From: Desulfocapsa sp.
GTDB taxonomy: Bacteria; Desulfobacterota; Desulfobulbia; Desulfobulbales; Desulfocapsaceae
NCBI GenBank assembly: GCA_022712895.1
Contig: JAFLJS010000039.1
Location: 1-64,000, forward strand
Direction of reading: 5' to 3'
Length of the DNA stretch: 64,000 nucleotides
How positions within the stretch are numbered: position 1 is the stretch's first letter; each line of letters starts with the position of its first letter. The position numbers and the translations under genes were made by a program. Under the pieces are notes generated by a model. It worked only from the letters and a program-made list of their open reading frames with translations, was not told where the DNA came from and searched no databases. Positions 41,944 to 46,334 of this stretch are shown here, one piece after another.

Positions 41944-41986
41944 AAAAAAAAATCGCAGCCTCTGATTAGTCAGAAACTGCGATTTT
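41944..41986 (-). terminator. Intrinsic terminator after yedE
   Basis: On the minus strand AAAATCGCAG (41986-41977) pairs with CTGCGATTTT, with an inner TCTGA/TCAGA pair and a TTAG loop. An A7 run on the plus strand (T-tract on minus) follows. The polarity ends the yedE transcript at 42015. Confidence 0.85.
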
Positions 41987-42014: not shown

Positions 42015-43274
42015 TCACATCGGTACAATCAGTTTATTGGTATCCTCGTTCCAGGTAACAACCAGGTACCAGACCATCATAACAGCAGCTATGAAGGCCA
42101 GTGTTCCGCCGTATCCCATGACATCTGGAAGGTATACGTAAGACCCTAGAGCACCTGATTTTTCAAGGTTTATTTCGTCTGGTCCAAAGTTCTTAAACCA
42201 AGTGGTCATAAGAGAGTTAGCAATACCAAAAAATGGTACCACCATGATCAACTTAACCTGACCCTCACCTACACGCCACAATGTTCCAGATCCGCAACCA
42301 CCAGCAAGCATGGCGCCAAGTCCAAAGATAAATCCACCAACAATAGATCCCCAACCAAAAGTTCCACGAACATAGTTAATTGGATGAAGTACAGACTCGC
42401 CACCATGGGCAATGGGAACTGCATATTTCAAAACTGCACCACCAATAGCAAGAAGCAGGATAGAAAGTGCAACAGATTTAGCAAGGGTACAGTCACCAGT
42501 CATGTGTGGCTCACGAAAACCCTGAACCATACACCAGCGGCCACGCTGCATGGTGTAACCAAGAGCAGCTGCAATCATAAGGATTCCGGAAAGAGAAGCG
42601 AGATAATCACTGTCTTCATTTCCTGCATATGTGTAAGCACCCCAGACAAGAACACCAATGGCAGCAACAGCCAGAATATTCTGTACAGCTGCTGGAATAT
42701 TAATGGTACCTGATCCGCCATCACCCCAGGAAATATATTCCATTTCCATATAGAGCAGTTTCAGTCCCAGTAAAACACCAGCAACAAGACCAATCCACAT
42801 GGTAAAACCGTTTGCTGCTAGGTTTCCTATGGCATTATACATTCCACCAACGTTACAACCACCTGCAAGAGCGGAACCAATACCCATCAGGATACCAGCG
42901 AGAACTGCTTTTACCATTTCACGATAGGGTGGAATACGGAAAGCAAAATCTTTACCAAGACAGGCTGAAATAAAGGCACCGGCAATAAAACCAAGGCCAA
43001 TTACAGAACCGGAACCGGAAAAGATTCCTCTTGGTGCTTCGTCATAAAATCCAAGAATTCCATTTTCAGCACCAATAACGGTATTGAGACCATAAATGAT
43101 CCAGTCACCCCAGTTACGAATGGCTCCAACCGCTCCCCACGGACGCCACCACGCCATAATCAAAAGAGAAAGGAAAGCAACAATTGCACCAACTATTGTT
43201 GGATTCCACTCTGATTTACAACACGTCTTGTAAAGATCTTTCACTTTACTTGCCATCACACTTTCTTCGCTCAT
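42015..43274 (-). CDS. yedE: YeeE/YedE-family sulfur-compound transporter
   Basis: The 419-residue membrane protein has about ten helices in two related halves. Conserved Cys-containing loops GGCNVGGMYNAIGN and LAGGCGSGTLWRVGEG match those that conduct thiosulfate in YeeE/TsuA-type proteins. It starts with ATG after an AGGAGGAG SD and is divergent from tusA. It is the Y of the YTD cluster and probably moves a sulfur or thiosulfate species across the inner membrane, handing it to TusA/DsrE. Confidence 0.88.
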   Translation of the reverse strand: MSEESVMASKVKDLYKTCCKSEWNPTIVGAIVAFLSLLIMAWWRPWGAVGAIRNWGDWIIYGLNTVIGAENGILGFYDEAPRGIFSGSGSVIGLGFIAGAFISACLGKDFAFRIPPYREMVKAVLAGILMGIGSALAGGCNVGGMYNAIGNLAANGFTMWIGLVAGVLLGLKLLYMEMEYISWGDGGSGTINIPAAVQNILAVAAIGVLVWGAYTYAGNEDSDYLASLSGILMIAAALGYTMQRGRWCMVQGFREPHMTGDCTLAKSVALSILLLAIGGAVLKYAVPIAHGGESVLHPINYVRGTFGWGSIVGGFIFGLGAMLAGGCGSGTLWRVGEGQVKLIMVVPFFGIANSLMTTWFKNFGPDEINLEKSGALGSYVYLPDVMGYGGTLAFIAAVMMVWYLVVTWNEDTNKLIVPM

Positions 43275-43337
43275 ACTTCTCCTCCTTGAAGTCCAAATAA
43301 TTCAAATAGCGATTTTAATGTTTCATTAAATGTAACT

Positions 43338-43366
43338 TCTTTACCCTTGCCAACAACATTTGTCAA
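43338..43366 (-). promoter_or_regulatory. Likely yedE promoter
   Basis: On the minus strand TTGACA (43366-43361) is followed by 17 bp and TAAAGA (43343-43338), about 60 bp before the yedE start. The -35 is perfect, the -10 weak. Confidence 0.45.
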
Positions 43367-43477
43367 GTATCTATGGACTTTTTTGAGCTTTTTAAAACAA
43401 TAATAAAGTCAAAAATGAATCCACATAACAGCAACTTACAAGTCAAGCAAACACTTGAATAGTCATTCATTTTCAAC

Positions 43478-43506
43478 TTGACATAATGTACTCGCTAAAG
43501 TATAGC
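43478..43506 (+). promoter_or_regulatory. Likely tusA-dsrE operon promoter
   Basis: TTGACA (43478-43483) and TATAGC (43501-43506) are separated by 17 bp, upstream of tusA. Together with the yedE promoter it makes the 347-bp gap (43275-43621) a divergent control region. No palindromic operator is obvious. Confidence 0.55.
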
Positions 43507-43621
43507 TTTGACTGTTATTTGATAAGTGTGTGTGGTTAACGCACTTTAGAGAAGTCCTTTTTAGACAGAAAACAATTATGTTTGTGGTCTACCGAAAAAA
43601 TATTTCCAGGAGGAAAATAAA

Positions 43622-43879
43622 ATGAGTGATCTTAAAGTTGCTGAAGAAGGCATAGAAGTGGCAAGTACACTTGATGCAAAAGGTTTAAGTTGTCCAATGC
43701 CTCTTCTTCGCACCAAGAAAGAAATTGGTAAAATCGCTTCCGGCGAAGTTCTCCAGATTGATGGTACCGACCCAGGTTCCAGAAATGATCTTCCTGGATG
43801 GTGTGCCCGCGCAGGACATGAGTACCTCGGAGAAAAAGAAGGATCTGGTTTCATCAGCTTTTACGTAAAAAAAGGTTGA
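43622..43879 (+). CDS. tusA: TusA-family sulfur carrier
   Basis: The 85-residue protein has the TusA signature LDAKGLSCPMPLLRTKKEIGK with the single sulfur-carrying Cys of the CPMP motif, and DPGSRNDLPGWCARAGHEYLG. TusA proteins carry persulfide sulfur between enzymes. It has a textbook AGGAGGA SD. It starts the tusA-dsrE-two small gene operon opposite yedE. Confidence 0.93.
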   Translation: MSDLKVAEEGIEVASTLDAKGLSCPMPLLRTKKEIGKIASGEVLQIDGTDPGSRNDLPGWCARAGHEYLGEKEGSGFISFYVKKG

Positions 43880-43950
43880 TTACCAACCCAGTTCTTTTCT
43901 TTATTTATCCGTAATAGTAAAAACATTAAAAGAATTTCCCGGAGAACATC

Positions 43951-44268
43951 ATGTCCAAAAGTCTCGGAATATTTGTTACCAACCCTGACCAGTTCAAACA
44001 TGTCATGGGTATTACCAAGGCTGCCAAAGCCAAAGGTTCAAGTGTAAAAGTTTTTTTCAGTTGGGATGCAACCCACAATGCTAAAAAAGAAGCTGGTTTT
44101 TCTGAGCTTTGTGAATTAGCAGACGATGTATCTATTTGTGTCGATAGTTATAAGAACATGGGATACGACATTGATGATATTCCGAAGGGTCTTGAAGCCA
44201 ATAAAATGGCTACCCAGGCTCAGCATGGAATCATTATTGAAGATTACGATTGTTACTTAAGTTTATAG
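43951..44268 (+). CDS. DsrE-family sulfur-relay protein
   Basis: The 105-residue protein has the DsrE-like fold pattern LGIFVTNPDQFKHVMGITKAAKAKG and VKVFFSWDATHN. Cys residues lie at FSELCELADDVSIC, with a C-terminal YDCYLSL. DsrE/TusD-like proteins accept persulfide from TusA. It lies 71 bp after tusA and 9 bp before the next gene. Confidence 0.8.
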   Translation: MSKSLGIFVTNPDQFKHVMGITKAAKAKGSSVKVFFSWDATHNAKKEAGFSELCELADDVSICVDSYKNMGYDIDDIPKGLEANKMATQAQHGIIIEDYDCYLSL

Positions 44269-44277
44269 GAGAATCCC

Positions 44278-44589
44278 ATGGAATATAATAAAGTGTGCCT
44301 GATGTACCGTAATCAGGATTGTACTGTTGATGGTATCCGCTCAGCTCTTGGGCTGGCTGTTGAGAATATGTATGCTTATGGCTGTGTAATGGATGAACCT
44401 AAGATGGAGAAATTCAACGAGCTTCAGACCGAATCTCTTGAAATGCTTCGTGATATGGAAGGTGACGTTTTTTCAACAACAAAAGAGAATTCTGAACTCA
44501 ATGATCTTGAACCCATCTCTATTGAAGAGCTTGGTGAAAAATTGCGTGAAATGACCCATATTATCCCTTTCGGCGTTATTAAAGCTTAG
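44278..44589 (+). CDS. YTD-cluster small protein, DsrE/DsrF-like
   Basis: The 103-residue acidic protein begins KVCLMYRNQDCTVDGIRSALGLAVENMYAYGCVMDEP, with cysteines near residues 6, 14 and 35. Its N-terminal beta-alpha layout and length resemble DsrE-superfamily subunits, but I see no diagnostic motif. AGGAG precedes the ATG. Its position after dsrE matches one of the small uncharacterised genes of YTD clusters. Confidence 0.6.
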   Translation: MEYNKVCLMYRNQDCTVDGIRSALGLAVENMYAYGCVMDEPKMEKFNELQTESLEMLRDMEGDVFSTTKENSELNDLEPISIEELGEKLREMTHIIPFGVIKA

Positions 44590-44598
44590 GAGTCAATT

Positions 44599-44772
44599 AT
44601 GAAAATTCTTAATATATATCGTTCAGCACCTGATGATACTACTAAAAAACTTGCTGAAATAGTAGGAAGAGATCGTGAAGTGGAAAACTTTGACTTAGCT
44701 GTTGATGCTCCAGATTATGATGCTCTCGTGGATCAAATTTTTGCTGCTGATCAAACCATCTGCTGGTGGTAA
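44599..44772 (+). CDS. 57-residue YTD-cluster protein ending in CWW
   Basis: ATG 44599, with TAGGAG (44587-44592) seven bases before it, opens a 57-codon frame. It starts MKILNIYRSAPDDTTKKLAE and ends DQTICWW, then TAA. Codon use and SD match its neighbours, and it lies 9 bp after the previous gene and just before the operon terminator. The beta-alpha start resembles the first strand-helix of a DsrH/TusB-like fold, with one C-terminal Cys. The family is not recognised, but the context supports a sulfur-relay accessory. Confidence 0.65.
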   Translation: MKILNIYRSAPDDTTKKLAEIVGRDREVENFDLAVDAPDYDALVDQIFAADQTICWW

Positions 44773-44798
44773 TCTGTTAGTATAAATTTTCCCGCTTT

Positions 44799-44843
44799 AA
44801 AAAAAGGGTATCAGATAGAGATTCTATCTGATACCCTTTTTTT
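44799..44843. terminator. Bidirectional intrinsic terminator
   Basis: A perfect 14-bp stem GGGTATCAGATAGA (44806-44819) / TCTATCTGATACCC (44823-44836) has a three-base loop and is flanked by A7 and T7. It would terminate the sulfur operon on the plus strand and the convergent serine hydrolase gene on the minus strand, whose stop codon overlaps its end. Confidence 0.95.
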
Positions 44844-45978
44844 ATCTTTTATCACTCCTGAGACTTGGGGAAACTTCCTGAATACCCATTAATTCTTTCA
44901 TCAATAAATCATGAAAAACTGGTCTAAATTCCTTAATTTTCCAATTTTCTCTCGTGGGATGAACTCTGTTTGAAAGCAGAACAATAATACATTCACGTAC
45001 CGGATCTATCCAGAAGGATGTTCCTGTAAAACCTAAATGTCCCACACTGGTTTTAGAAAAATAGCTTCCACTGCTTGATTCTGACTCTGAAACTATATCA
45101 AACCCCATTGTCCACCCTGAATTTCCAACAGGCTCTAAAATACGCTGTAACAGTTCTTTTGAATATGCAGGGTGCTCACCCCTTCCTTTCCATTGATCAA
45201 GAAATTGTTCGCACATAGAAAGGACTCCATGCAAGGTCCCAAACAAACCTGCATGGCCAGCAACTCCTCCCATGGCCCTACAGTTGTCATCGTGGACTTC
45301 TCCATTTAGCATTACCTTTTTCCACAAACATTTCTCGGTACTTACATATTTCAGGTTTTCTTTCGATTTAAACGGTGGATAAAACAGATCATCAGCAAGC
45401 CCTAGGGGAGTGTACAATGAATTATTAGCCAGTTTTGCAAGACTTGTCCCTGTAACTTCTTCAATTATACAACCAAGGAACATAAAACCAAGGTCACTAT
45501 AAATACATTTTTCACCCGGAACAGCTACAAGAACTTCTTTAAAGATTGTCGTAAGAAATTGTTTTTTTCTCTTTTTATTAGGTAGTTTTACAAGGTCTAT
45601 ATAATATTCTTTATGGGCTGGTAATCCTGAACTATGTGACAGAAGTTGTCCGATGGTTATTTGGGCTTTATCTGAAGGAATGGAAGGATAAATATCCTGT
45701 AGTTCAGTTTTAATATTGATTTTATAATCCTTCAAAAGGATCAGCAATAATGGAACTGTAGTTAATGCTTTTGTGAGGGAGGCAAGATCAAAAACTGAAT
45801 TTATTCTCAACTCTTTTTTGTCAGGTTCTAACTGGGCATATCCATAGCAACTAGTTTCACGTTTATAGGCCCCTTTCTCCCACTTTGAAAAGGCAAAAGA
45901 AGCTCCTGGAAATACACCACTATTTAAAGCAGTTATAAACAACTTATTAATTTTTTTTGCCTTGTTAGTTTCCTTCAT
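44842..45978 (-). CDS. Beta-lactamase-fold serine hydrolase
   Basis: I start at ATG 45978, which has AGAAGGG before it; an in-frame TTG 18 bases earlier is weaker. The 378-residue protein shows the class C/DD-peptidase motifs: SLTK (SxxK nucleophile), YSD (YxN-like) and HLGFTG (KTG-like). No signal peptide is evident, so it is probably cytoplasmic, as are many family members acting as esterases or on D-amino acid peptides. It is AT-rich compared with genes to its left and ends at the shared terminator. Confidence 0.82.
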   Translation of the reverse strand: MKETNKAKKINKLFITALNSGVFPGASFAFSKWEKGAYKRETSCYGYAQLEPDKKELRINSVFDLASLTKALTTVPLLLILLKDYKINIKTELQDIYPSIPSDKAQITIGQLLSHSSGLPAHKEYYIDLVKLPNKKRKKQFLTTIFKEVLVAVPGEKCIYSDLGFMFLGCIIEEVTGTSLAKLANNSLYTPLGLADDLFYPPFKSKENLKYVSTEKCLWKKVMLNGEVHDDNCRAMGGVAGHAGLFGTLHGVLSMCEQFLDQWKGRGEHPAYSKELLQRILEPVGNSGWTMGFDIVSESESSSGSYFSKTSVGHLGFTGTSFWIDPVRECIIVLLSNRVHPTRENWKIKEFRPVFHDLLMKELMGIQEVSPSLRSDKR

Positions 45979-46334
45979 AATAACCCTTCTTTTCAACAGT
46001 TTTGATAAACTATTTTATTGCTAATAAATCTTGTGTTTTTAGCCGCTTTGCACTACAATCTATTAAATCTTAAACGTTGAGAATATCGTTATTTTTTTAT
46101 AATATATTTTATAAAAATTTCACTTTTCAACACTCTTTGAACAGGCCTTGTTAATACATTTTTAATAACTTGGTTAATAAGCTGTTCAAAACTGGAAATA
46201 AACAAATTTTTCAGTTTTTCCAACAACACATTGTTTATAAAATGTTATATAAAATTAATATGTTATGTTATTTGTAAACATATTAACACCCTTAATAACA
46301 ATAATAAAAAGATTATTTAATAAAGGGATTCCCC
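45979..46334. other. AT-rich region upstream of dnaN
   Basis: This gap is very AT-rich, with many short TTAATA/TTTATAA repeats and no gene. It must hold promoters for dnaN and the divergent serine hydrolase. I looked for TTATCCACA-type DnaA boxes, because dnaN and gyrB often lie near oriC, and saw none close to consensus. A strand-skew plot would be needed to judge an origin. Confidence 0.4.

Follow-up and report, generated by a model that had tools for sequence, protein, structure and literature searches.

A putative TusA-DsrEFH type II sulfur relay of Desulfocapsa has a promoter palindrome in common with dsrAB and energy-conservation operons

The 64,000-nucleotide stretch of Desulfocapsa sp. 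DNA considered here (the window; contig JAFLJS010000039.1, positions 1 to 64,000) carries, at 42015-44772, a gene for a YedE-like transporter that is divergent from tusA, a dsrE-like gene, and two small genes. We consider it probable that this locus encodes a relay which supplies sulfane sulfur to the Dsr machinery and is controlled together with the core Dsr and energy genes, and that the locus, taken alone, is no reliable sign of sulfur disproportionation. Gene content, gene order, conservation, an invariant cysteine in the DsrE protein (Cys63), the DsrE/F fold of the first small protein, and sulfur transfer by homologues in vitro argue for this reading, as do dsrA, a DsrM operon, and sat in the same genome together with a common palindrome, TGAAT-N4-ATTCA. 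The five genes are a known module, the YTD gene cluster (Umezawa et al. 2020, as relayed in PMC13293266, PMC12998232, PMC9751629, and PMC8780430), and the cluster itself is not news. The part worth following is the common site.

Results

The inverted repeat came to light, ahead of a conserved promoter, when nine yedE|tusA regions from the genus group were aligned; TGAAT-N4-ATTCA starts 22 nt before the -35 box of tusA. In the window it reads TGAATAGTCATTCA (43456..43469), a putative operator common to dsrAB and energy operons. The word TTGAATARYCATTCA occurs just twice in the 3.68-Mb genome of the window (G000), once at tusA (43455-43469) and once some 200 nt upstream of dsrA, and the reversed word does not occur. 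TGAAT-N4-ATTCA sites number 14 in G000 and 13, 15, and 22 in three further genomes (G009, G010, and G002), compared with 0 and 0, 2, and 0 for the reversed pattern. Nine of the 14 sites in G000 stand before sulfur or energy genes: two before dsrAB, one each at tusA-dsrEFH, rsbRD-dsrMKJOP, and SulP|iorA, one each at LysR|nuoAB and atpI-atpB, and two at atpF (the iorA, atpI, and rsbRD neighbours were partly named by eye). The site precedes tusA, dsrAB, nuoA|lysR, atpI, and atpF in all four genomes, SulP in three, and rsbRD-dsrM, a cytochrome c3 gene, and a FadR-like TetR gene in two each. Because the palindrome recurs before dsrAB, dsrMKJOP, the SulP permease gene, nuo, and both ATP-synthase operons, the relay would seem to form part of a core Dsr/energy regulon.

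Two other occurrences concern genes of related interest. A further DsrE-family gene in G002 (L176 1577-1936; PF02635, 58.4 bits) has the palindrome upstream. In G010, the palindrome (L160 1506-1519) precedes genes for a TorD-like chaperone, a molybdopterin oxidoreductase, and a 4Fe-4S protein (L215 6433-10215, G010:C76). This is the composition given for the MOLY cluster (PMC12998232), and the operon is in that sense MOLY-like.

Relatives of the locus were fetched with the 103-residue protein of the first small gene (the best 80 of the 91 candidates that passed), and the tusA set was made up of 69 yedE|tusA regions, namely that of the window, that of one congener, and those of the fetched loci in which both genes are complete and divergent. 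With one end base left free, the site occurs in 30 of the 69 regions versus a simulated mean of 0.4 and a maximum of 3 in 200 rounds; seven control patterns are found in 0-1 of the same regions. A site starting 22 (±2) nt before TTGAC matches at 10 of 10 bases in 26 of the 69 and at 9 or more in 36, and eight other offsets give 0-2. No palindrome stands at -22 in L018, L021, L022, L025-L027, L030, L034, and L035, which have a CTAAAGTATAGGTCA-like block around the -10 box that may reflect another mode of control of these genes.

The dsrA set combined 17 loci of the genus (one of 18 held no dsrA) with the best 30 order-wide of 57 genomes above the cut-off. All 17 genus promoters and 26 of the 30 order-wide promoters have the site (one of the four misses has only 57 nt of upstream sequence), and the seven control patterns again give 0-1. 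The site starts 36 (±2) nt downstream of the first base of TTGAC in 16/17 and 24/30 cases, respectively, and a second copy stands at -43 in 14/17 and 4/30. Before other genes of the same loci, the site is absent or nearly so: dnaN 0/45, gyrB 0/38, the serine hydrolase gene 0/48, dsrE 0/84, dsrF 0/82, and dsrH 1/73. Shared ancestry inflates all of these site counts. Descent alone would not explain the same site at both places, since tusA and dsrA each have a promoter of their own. Among the open-access papers listed by our literature searches, we found no description of the palindrome, nor any regulator or motif for dsrAB in this order.

The first-pass annotation of the window had proposed a YTD-type cluster, and this was borne out: a yedE-related gene, tusA, a dsrE-related gene, and two conserved hypothetical genes stand together, and the coordinates and strands of the open reading frames (ORFs) confirm that yedE is divergent from the other four with nothing between. 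Both small genes have full-length matches in the YTD loci of a metagenome-assembled genome (MAG) titled Desulfocapsa sulfexigens (L004) and of Desulfofustis glycolicus (L055), these two loci being the basis of the comparison. A mismatch of the small genes with those of YTD clusters, which the annotation had named as evidence that would count against it, was thus not observed. In content and divergent order the locus does not differ from the YTD cluster, and that of L004 has 79-89% protein identity to the window. The portions of the YTD literature cited here mention no operator common with dsrAB. The annotation also held that the biochemistry of the cluster was not established, which has been overtaken by a 2026 description of sulfur transfer (PMC13293266). 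There, the dsrE-like gene and both small genes are DsrEFH type II, a TusA-fed sulfurtransferase in vitro; with the cable-bacterium homologues, sulfur passes from TusA to DsrE-Cys67 and from DsrEFH to DsrC, and thiosulfate failed to load the proteins. Reductive dsrAB co-occurs in 73.9% of cluster carriers according to the same paper.

As in DsrEFH type II, three syntenic genes accompany tusA and yeeE/yedE in the window. Among the cysteines of DsrE in the window, only that at position 63 is invariant (53 of 53 homologues), and it aligns with residue 67 of the proteins in L100 and L101; the active-site cysteine of Electronema is Cys67. Across its three proteins L100 has six cysteines besides Cys67, two of them in DsrF, and because this count fits the published one we liken L100, which we infer to come from a cable bacterium, to the Electronema aureum complex. 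The window locus thus resembles the cable-bacterium system in having dsrEFH after tusA beside yeeE/yedE, an invariant active cysteine, and reductive dsrAB. It differs in the length of DsrE (105 residues with Cys63, versus 110 with Cys67 in L100).

At the level of sequence families, the 105-residue protein scores 21.4 bits with Pfam DsrE, just below the cut-off of 22.7, and neither small ORF matches a Pfam or NCBIfam family above cut-off. No model of the DsrEFH type I and TusBCD families exceeds its cut-off for the dsrE-like, 103-residue, or 57-residue protein, and profile searches of these three against the sequences of solved structures gave nothing usable. The structural model of the 103-residue protein (pLDDT 93.7) has a DsrE/F fold. 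Its ten best matches by VIA-align run from Z 10.3 to 7.6, including 3mc3 (Z 10.3, 3.2 Å, 96 aligned), and are followed by a drop to 6.6 for an unrelated structure; those with names are DsrE/F-like, YchN, DsrEFH, and TusBCD proteins, and the remainder consists of one designed cage and of chains without a named function. Foldseek also places three DsrE/F-like chains on top, none of them at an E value of 0.001 or better. The protein therefore resembles canonical type I DsrEFH (2hy5_A of 2HY5, Z 8.2) and TusBCD (2d1p_B of 2D1P, Z 7.6) in fold and not in sequence. The 57-residue protein, modelled as a small β-α-β-α-β unit (pLDDT 95.4), is much shorter than the 101-residue DsrH chain 2hy5_C. The two align with Z 4.6 (2.4 Å, 55 aligned) in the VIA list, level with unrelated folds, and no DsrE, DsrF, or DsrH chain is among the 50 matches listed by Foldseek. 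Because this match reaches only Z 4.6, the name DsrH rests mainly on synteny and on PMC13293266.

The first-pass annotation took the cluster to be a marker of sulfur disproportionation, a use that its distribution does not support. A profile search finds the cluster DsrF in 186 of 218 genomes of the order and in 60 of 67 genera (132 of 148 genomes with a completeness of 90% or more and a contamination of 5% or less); the cluster therefore follows taxonomy. For phenotypes we relied on the papers. The complete cluster is reported in all S0 disproportionators, yet also in strains negative for all forms of disproportionation, and it is said there to be unable to serve alone as a marker (PMC12998232). 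A second survey reports it in 25 of 63 cultured disproportionators, with 38 lacking it, and also in non-disproportionating sulfate reducers (PMC13293266). Carriers unable to disproportionate, which the annotation itself had named as evidence that would count against it, thus exist on both of these 2026 accounts. Truncation of AprB is unusable as an independent marker here, as no aprB scores above cut-off in this assembly and PMC12998232 rejects that marker.

Desulfofustis glycolicus disproportionates S0 but neither sulfite nor thiosulfate (PMC12998232). Its locus (L055) holds all five genes, and therefore thiosulfate disproportionation is not predicted by them. The expectation that the source organism can disproportionate S0 or thiosulfate survives in part: it is plausible because the genus Desulfocapsa does so (the strains of the PMC12998232 list disproportionate), not because of the cluster.

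The genome that contains the window comprises 3.68 Mb in 75 contigs and is reported as 100% complete. It has dsrA (566 bits, above the family cut-off) with dsrB adjoining, a DsrM gene (501.7 bits versus a cut-off of 300) in a dsrMKJOP-like operon, and sat; from taxonomy, the dsrAB genes should be of the reductive type. A search of the assembly gave no real match to aprA or aprB, and neither did a search, run without a positive control, with a DNA stretch spanning aprA and its flanks. Across 26 genomes, aprA is above cut-off in 18. In the congeners G001 and G013, only the first 114 residues of aprA were found, in G001 at 17 nt from a contig end. Given this cut at the contig end of G001, the absence of aprA and aprB is likely an assembly gap.

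The five ORFs of the locus lie on strands -, +, +, +, and +. The yedE-like gene for a sulfur-compound transporter (Sulf_transp) occupies 42015..43274 on the minus strand (419 residues; PF04143, 145.9 bits), and a promoter-like TTGACA-N17-TAAAGA stands before it (43338..43366, minus strand), conserved in the genus group. On the plus strand, a promoter-like TTGACA-N17-TATAGC (43478..43506), invariant across the nine aligned regions except for its last bases, precedes tusA (43622..43879; 85 residues; PF01206, 79 bits), dsrE (43951..44268), dsrF (44278..44589), and dsrH (44599..44772). Both promoters rest on conservation, because a generic σ70 scan did no better than chance (7 found versus 7.6 expected from shuffles) and missed that of tusA. 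Terminator-like hairpins, of which the region has 7 versus 2.4 in shuffles, end both units (44799..44843, plus strand, and 41949..41986, minus strand). An RNA family search of the window gave no match.

All five genes are present in 70 of the 80 fetched relatives, the closest of which are Desulfocapsa MAGs with up to 91% identity in the 103-residue protein. Among the 66 fetched loci with five complete genes, 65 keep the divergent order and one, L060, does not. The last small gene encodes 57 residues in 74 and 58 residues in 5 of 79 complete copies, our own included. Since the gene set, this length, and the arrangement are kept, the two small ORFs are real genes and not chance ORFs, and with 57 or 58 residues in 79 of 79 copies the last one is not a broken gene. 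Two contigs of one MAG (NORP205; L006 and L007) are 99.8% identical over 5.66 kb from dsrE on and differ at tusA, either a duplication or a mixed bin, and G002, G004, and G007 each have two DsrF matches.

Of the 72 loci whose 3' flank extends for 1 kb or more, 45 have the same serine hydrolase gene next after the cluster and 27 do not. The flank includes dnaN in 38 of 66 loci (at least 3 kb of flank), and fcl lies beyond yedE in 18 of 66 (at least 1 kb). The recurrence of these neighbours across loci, distant families included (L079, L100, and L101), led us to reject a mobile, recently acquired cluster. The minimum of cumulative GC skew falls at 44-46 kb (window 44000-46300), beside dnaN and gyrB, which probably places the locus at the replication origin. 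We saw no clustering of DnaA boxes around the minimum.

Discussion

We propose that YedE imports a reduced sulfur compound and that TusA would take sulfane sulfur in the cytoplasm. As in the cable-bacterium homologues, DsrEFH type II would then receive the sulfur on Cys63 of DsrE and, by the same analogy, pass it to DsrC, which carries the substrate of reductive-type DsrAB. The operon would be controlled with the Dsr and energy machinery through TGAAT-N4-ATTCA at the tusA-dsrEFH, dsrAB, dsrMKJOP, SulP, nuo, and ATP-synthase promoters, and the common site suggests that the relay, the sulfite reductase, and the energy genes are switched together. Such a relay could serve sulfur oxidation or, in organisms that carry it out, the oxidative arm of S0 disproportionation.

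Several observations weigh against this proposal. The link is not universal, as 33 of the 69 loci have no match to 9 or more of the 10 bases at -22, and 5 of the 14 sites in G000 are not assigned to a sulfur or energy promoter, at least two of these lying in or at the end of a coding sequence, where they recur in congeners. Without aprA and aprB, the sulfite-to-sulfate step is incomplete on paper. The fold of the 57-residue model supports DsrH weakly. Finally, all five proteins are more abundant during thiosulfate disproportionation by Desulfolithobacter (PMC9751629), a proteome that would fit a role in disproportionation equally well.

That proteome, the presence of the cluster in all S0 disproportionators, and the known habit of the genus (PMC12998232) would also be expected if the cluster were dedicated to, and diagnostic of, disproportionation, activating S0 or thiosulfate for that pathway only. 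We regard this as distinctly unlikely in view of its occurrence in most genomes of the order, of the published carriers that do not disproportionate and the disproportionators that lack it, and of the transfer of sulfur to DsrC by the cable-bacterium homologue (PMC13293266). It is unlikely, too, that the palindrome is real but otherwise used, by two regulators or as a general promoter element, with tusA-dsrEFH and dsrAB not co-regulated. The site does differ in position, ahead of the promoter in the case of tusA and across the start region in that of dsrAB, and many loci on the Desulfopila, Desulforhopalus, and Desulfofustis side have none at tusA; against this, the same 14-bp sequence is rare in the genome, is concentrated before sulfur and energy genes, and does not occur in front of dnaN, gyrB, or the serine hydrolase gene.

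The genes could also form a biosynthetic relay, in which TusA and a TusBCD-like complex serve tRNA or cofactor thiolation and YedE imports thiosulfate for assimilation. The DsrF model matches TusBCD as well as DsrEFH, and YedE has weak similarity to TsuA (93.1 bits with the NCBIfam model, versus a cut-off of 400). This we judge very unlikely given the frequent company of reductive dsrAB, the failure of thiosulfate to load the homologous proteins (both PMC13293266), and the site common to dsrAB and the energy operons. A role in selenium metabolism of the YedE/YedF type is scarcely credible: YedE and TusA are weakly similar to the selenium models, and their scores of 81.6 and 26.5 bits fall far under the cut-offs of 350 and 110 in a DsrEFH context. 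A sulfur relay to the Dsr machinery remains the explanation that we favour.

If transcription is assumed to start 6-7 nt after the -10 box, the predicted site centres are near -50 at tusA and near +8 (proximal) and -71 (distal) at dsrAB. By position under this assumed start, the tusA site would be activator-like and the proximal dsrAB site repressor-like. The palindrome resembles the ARG box of Escherichia coli. ArgR was rejected as its owner, since PF01316 is found in 0 of 4 genomes (controls match in 9 of 14). HcpR was also rejected, as half-site and spacing differ from its sites, TTGTGAnnnnnnTCACAA or, in Desulfotalea, atTTGAccnnggTCAAat (PMC545781). The HcpR regulon is comparable in that one regulator stands over sulfate-reduction and energy genes of sulfate reducers; it differs in its recognition sequence, and in the portion of that paper cited here dsrAB lies outside the Desulfovibrio HcpR regulon (PMC545781).

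Two candidates have the palindrome at their own promoters. One is a LysR-type protein nearest YeiE (270.6 bits, below the cut-off of 480), with the palindrome in 4 of 4 genomes; its gene (L136 510-2680, G000:C16; L152) is divergent from nuoAB with the palindrome between. The other is the FadR-like TetR protein (172.5 bits versus a cut-off of 200), with the palindrome in 2 of 4. YeiE binds sulfite in enterobacteria (PMC12880088), and our guess is that a sulfite-sensing YeiE-like LysR would suit a Dsr regulon. A bolder and rather doubtful idea is that one regulator, conserved order-wide, decides which way the Dsr pathway runs, activating from a site that precedes the -35 box of tusA-dsrEFH and nuoA and repressing from one that covers the dsrAB start region. 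Were this true, the signal sensed would be a sulfur intermediate (in the case of the YeiE-like LysR, sulfite), cells would be switched between reducing sulfite and oxidizing or disproportionating sulfur, and the reach of the regulator would extend to a MOLY-like operon in at least one congener.

Overall, YTD alone is an unsafe predictor of disproportionation. The site described here would link the TusA-DsrEFH type II relay to dsrAB, dsrMKJOP, and energy conservation independently of the in vitro work, and it points to a regulator of dsrAB across the whole order. It may thereby be relevant to the debated possibility that Dsr operates in the reverse direction in these bacteria.

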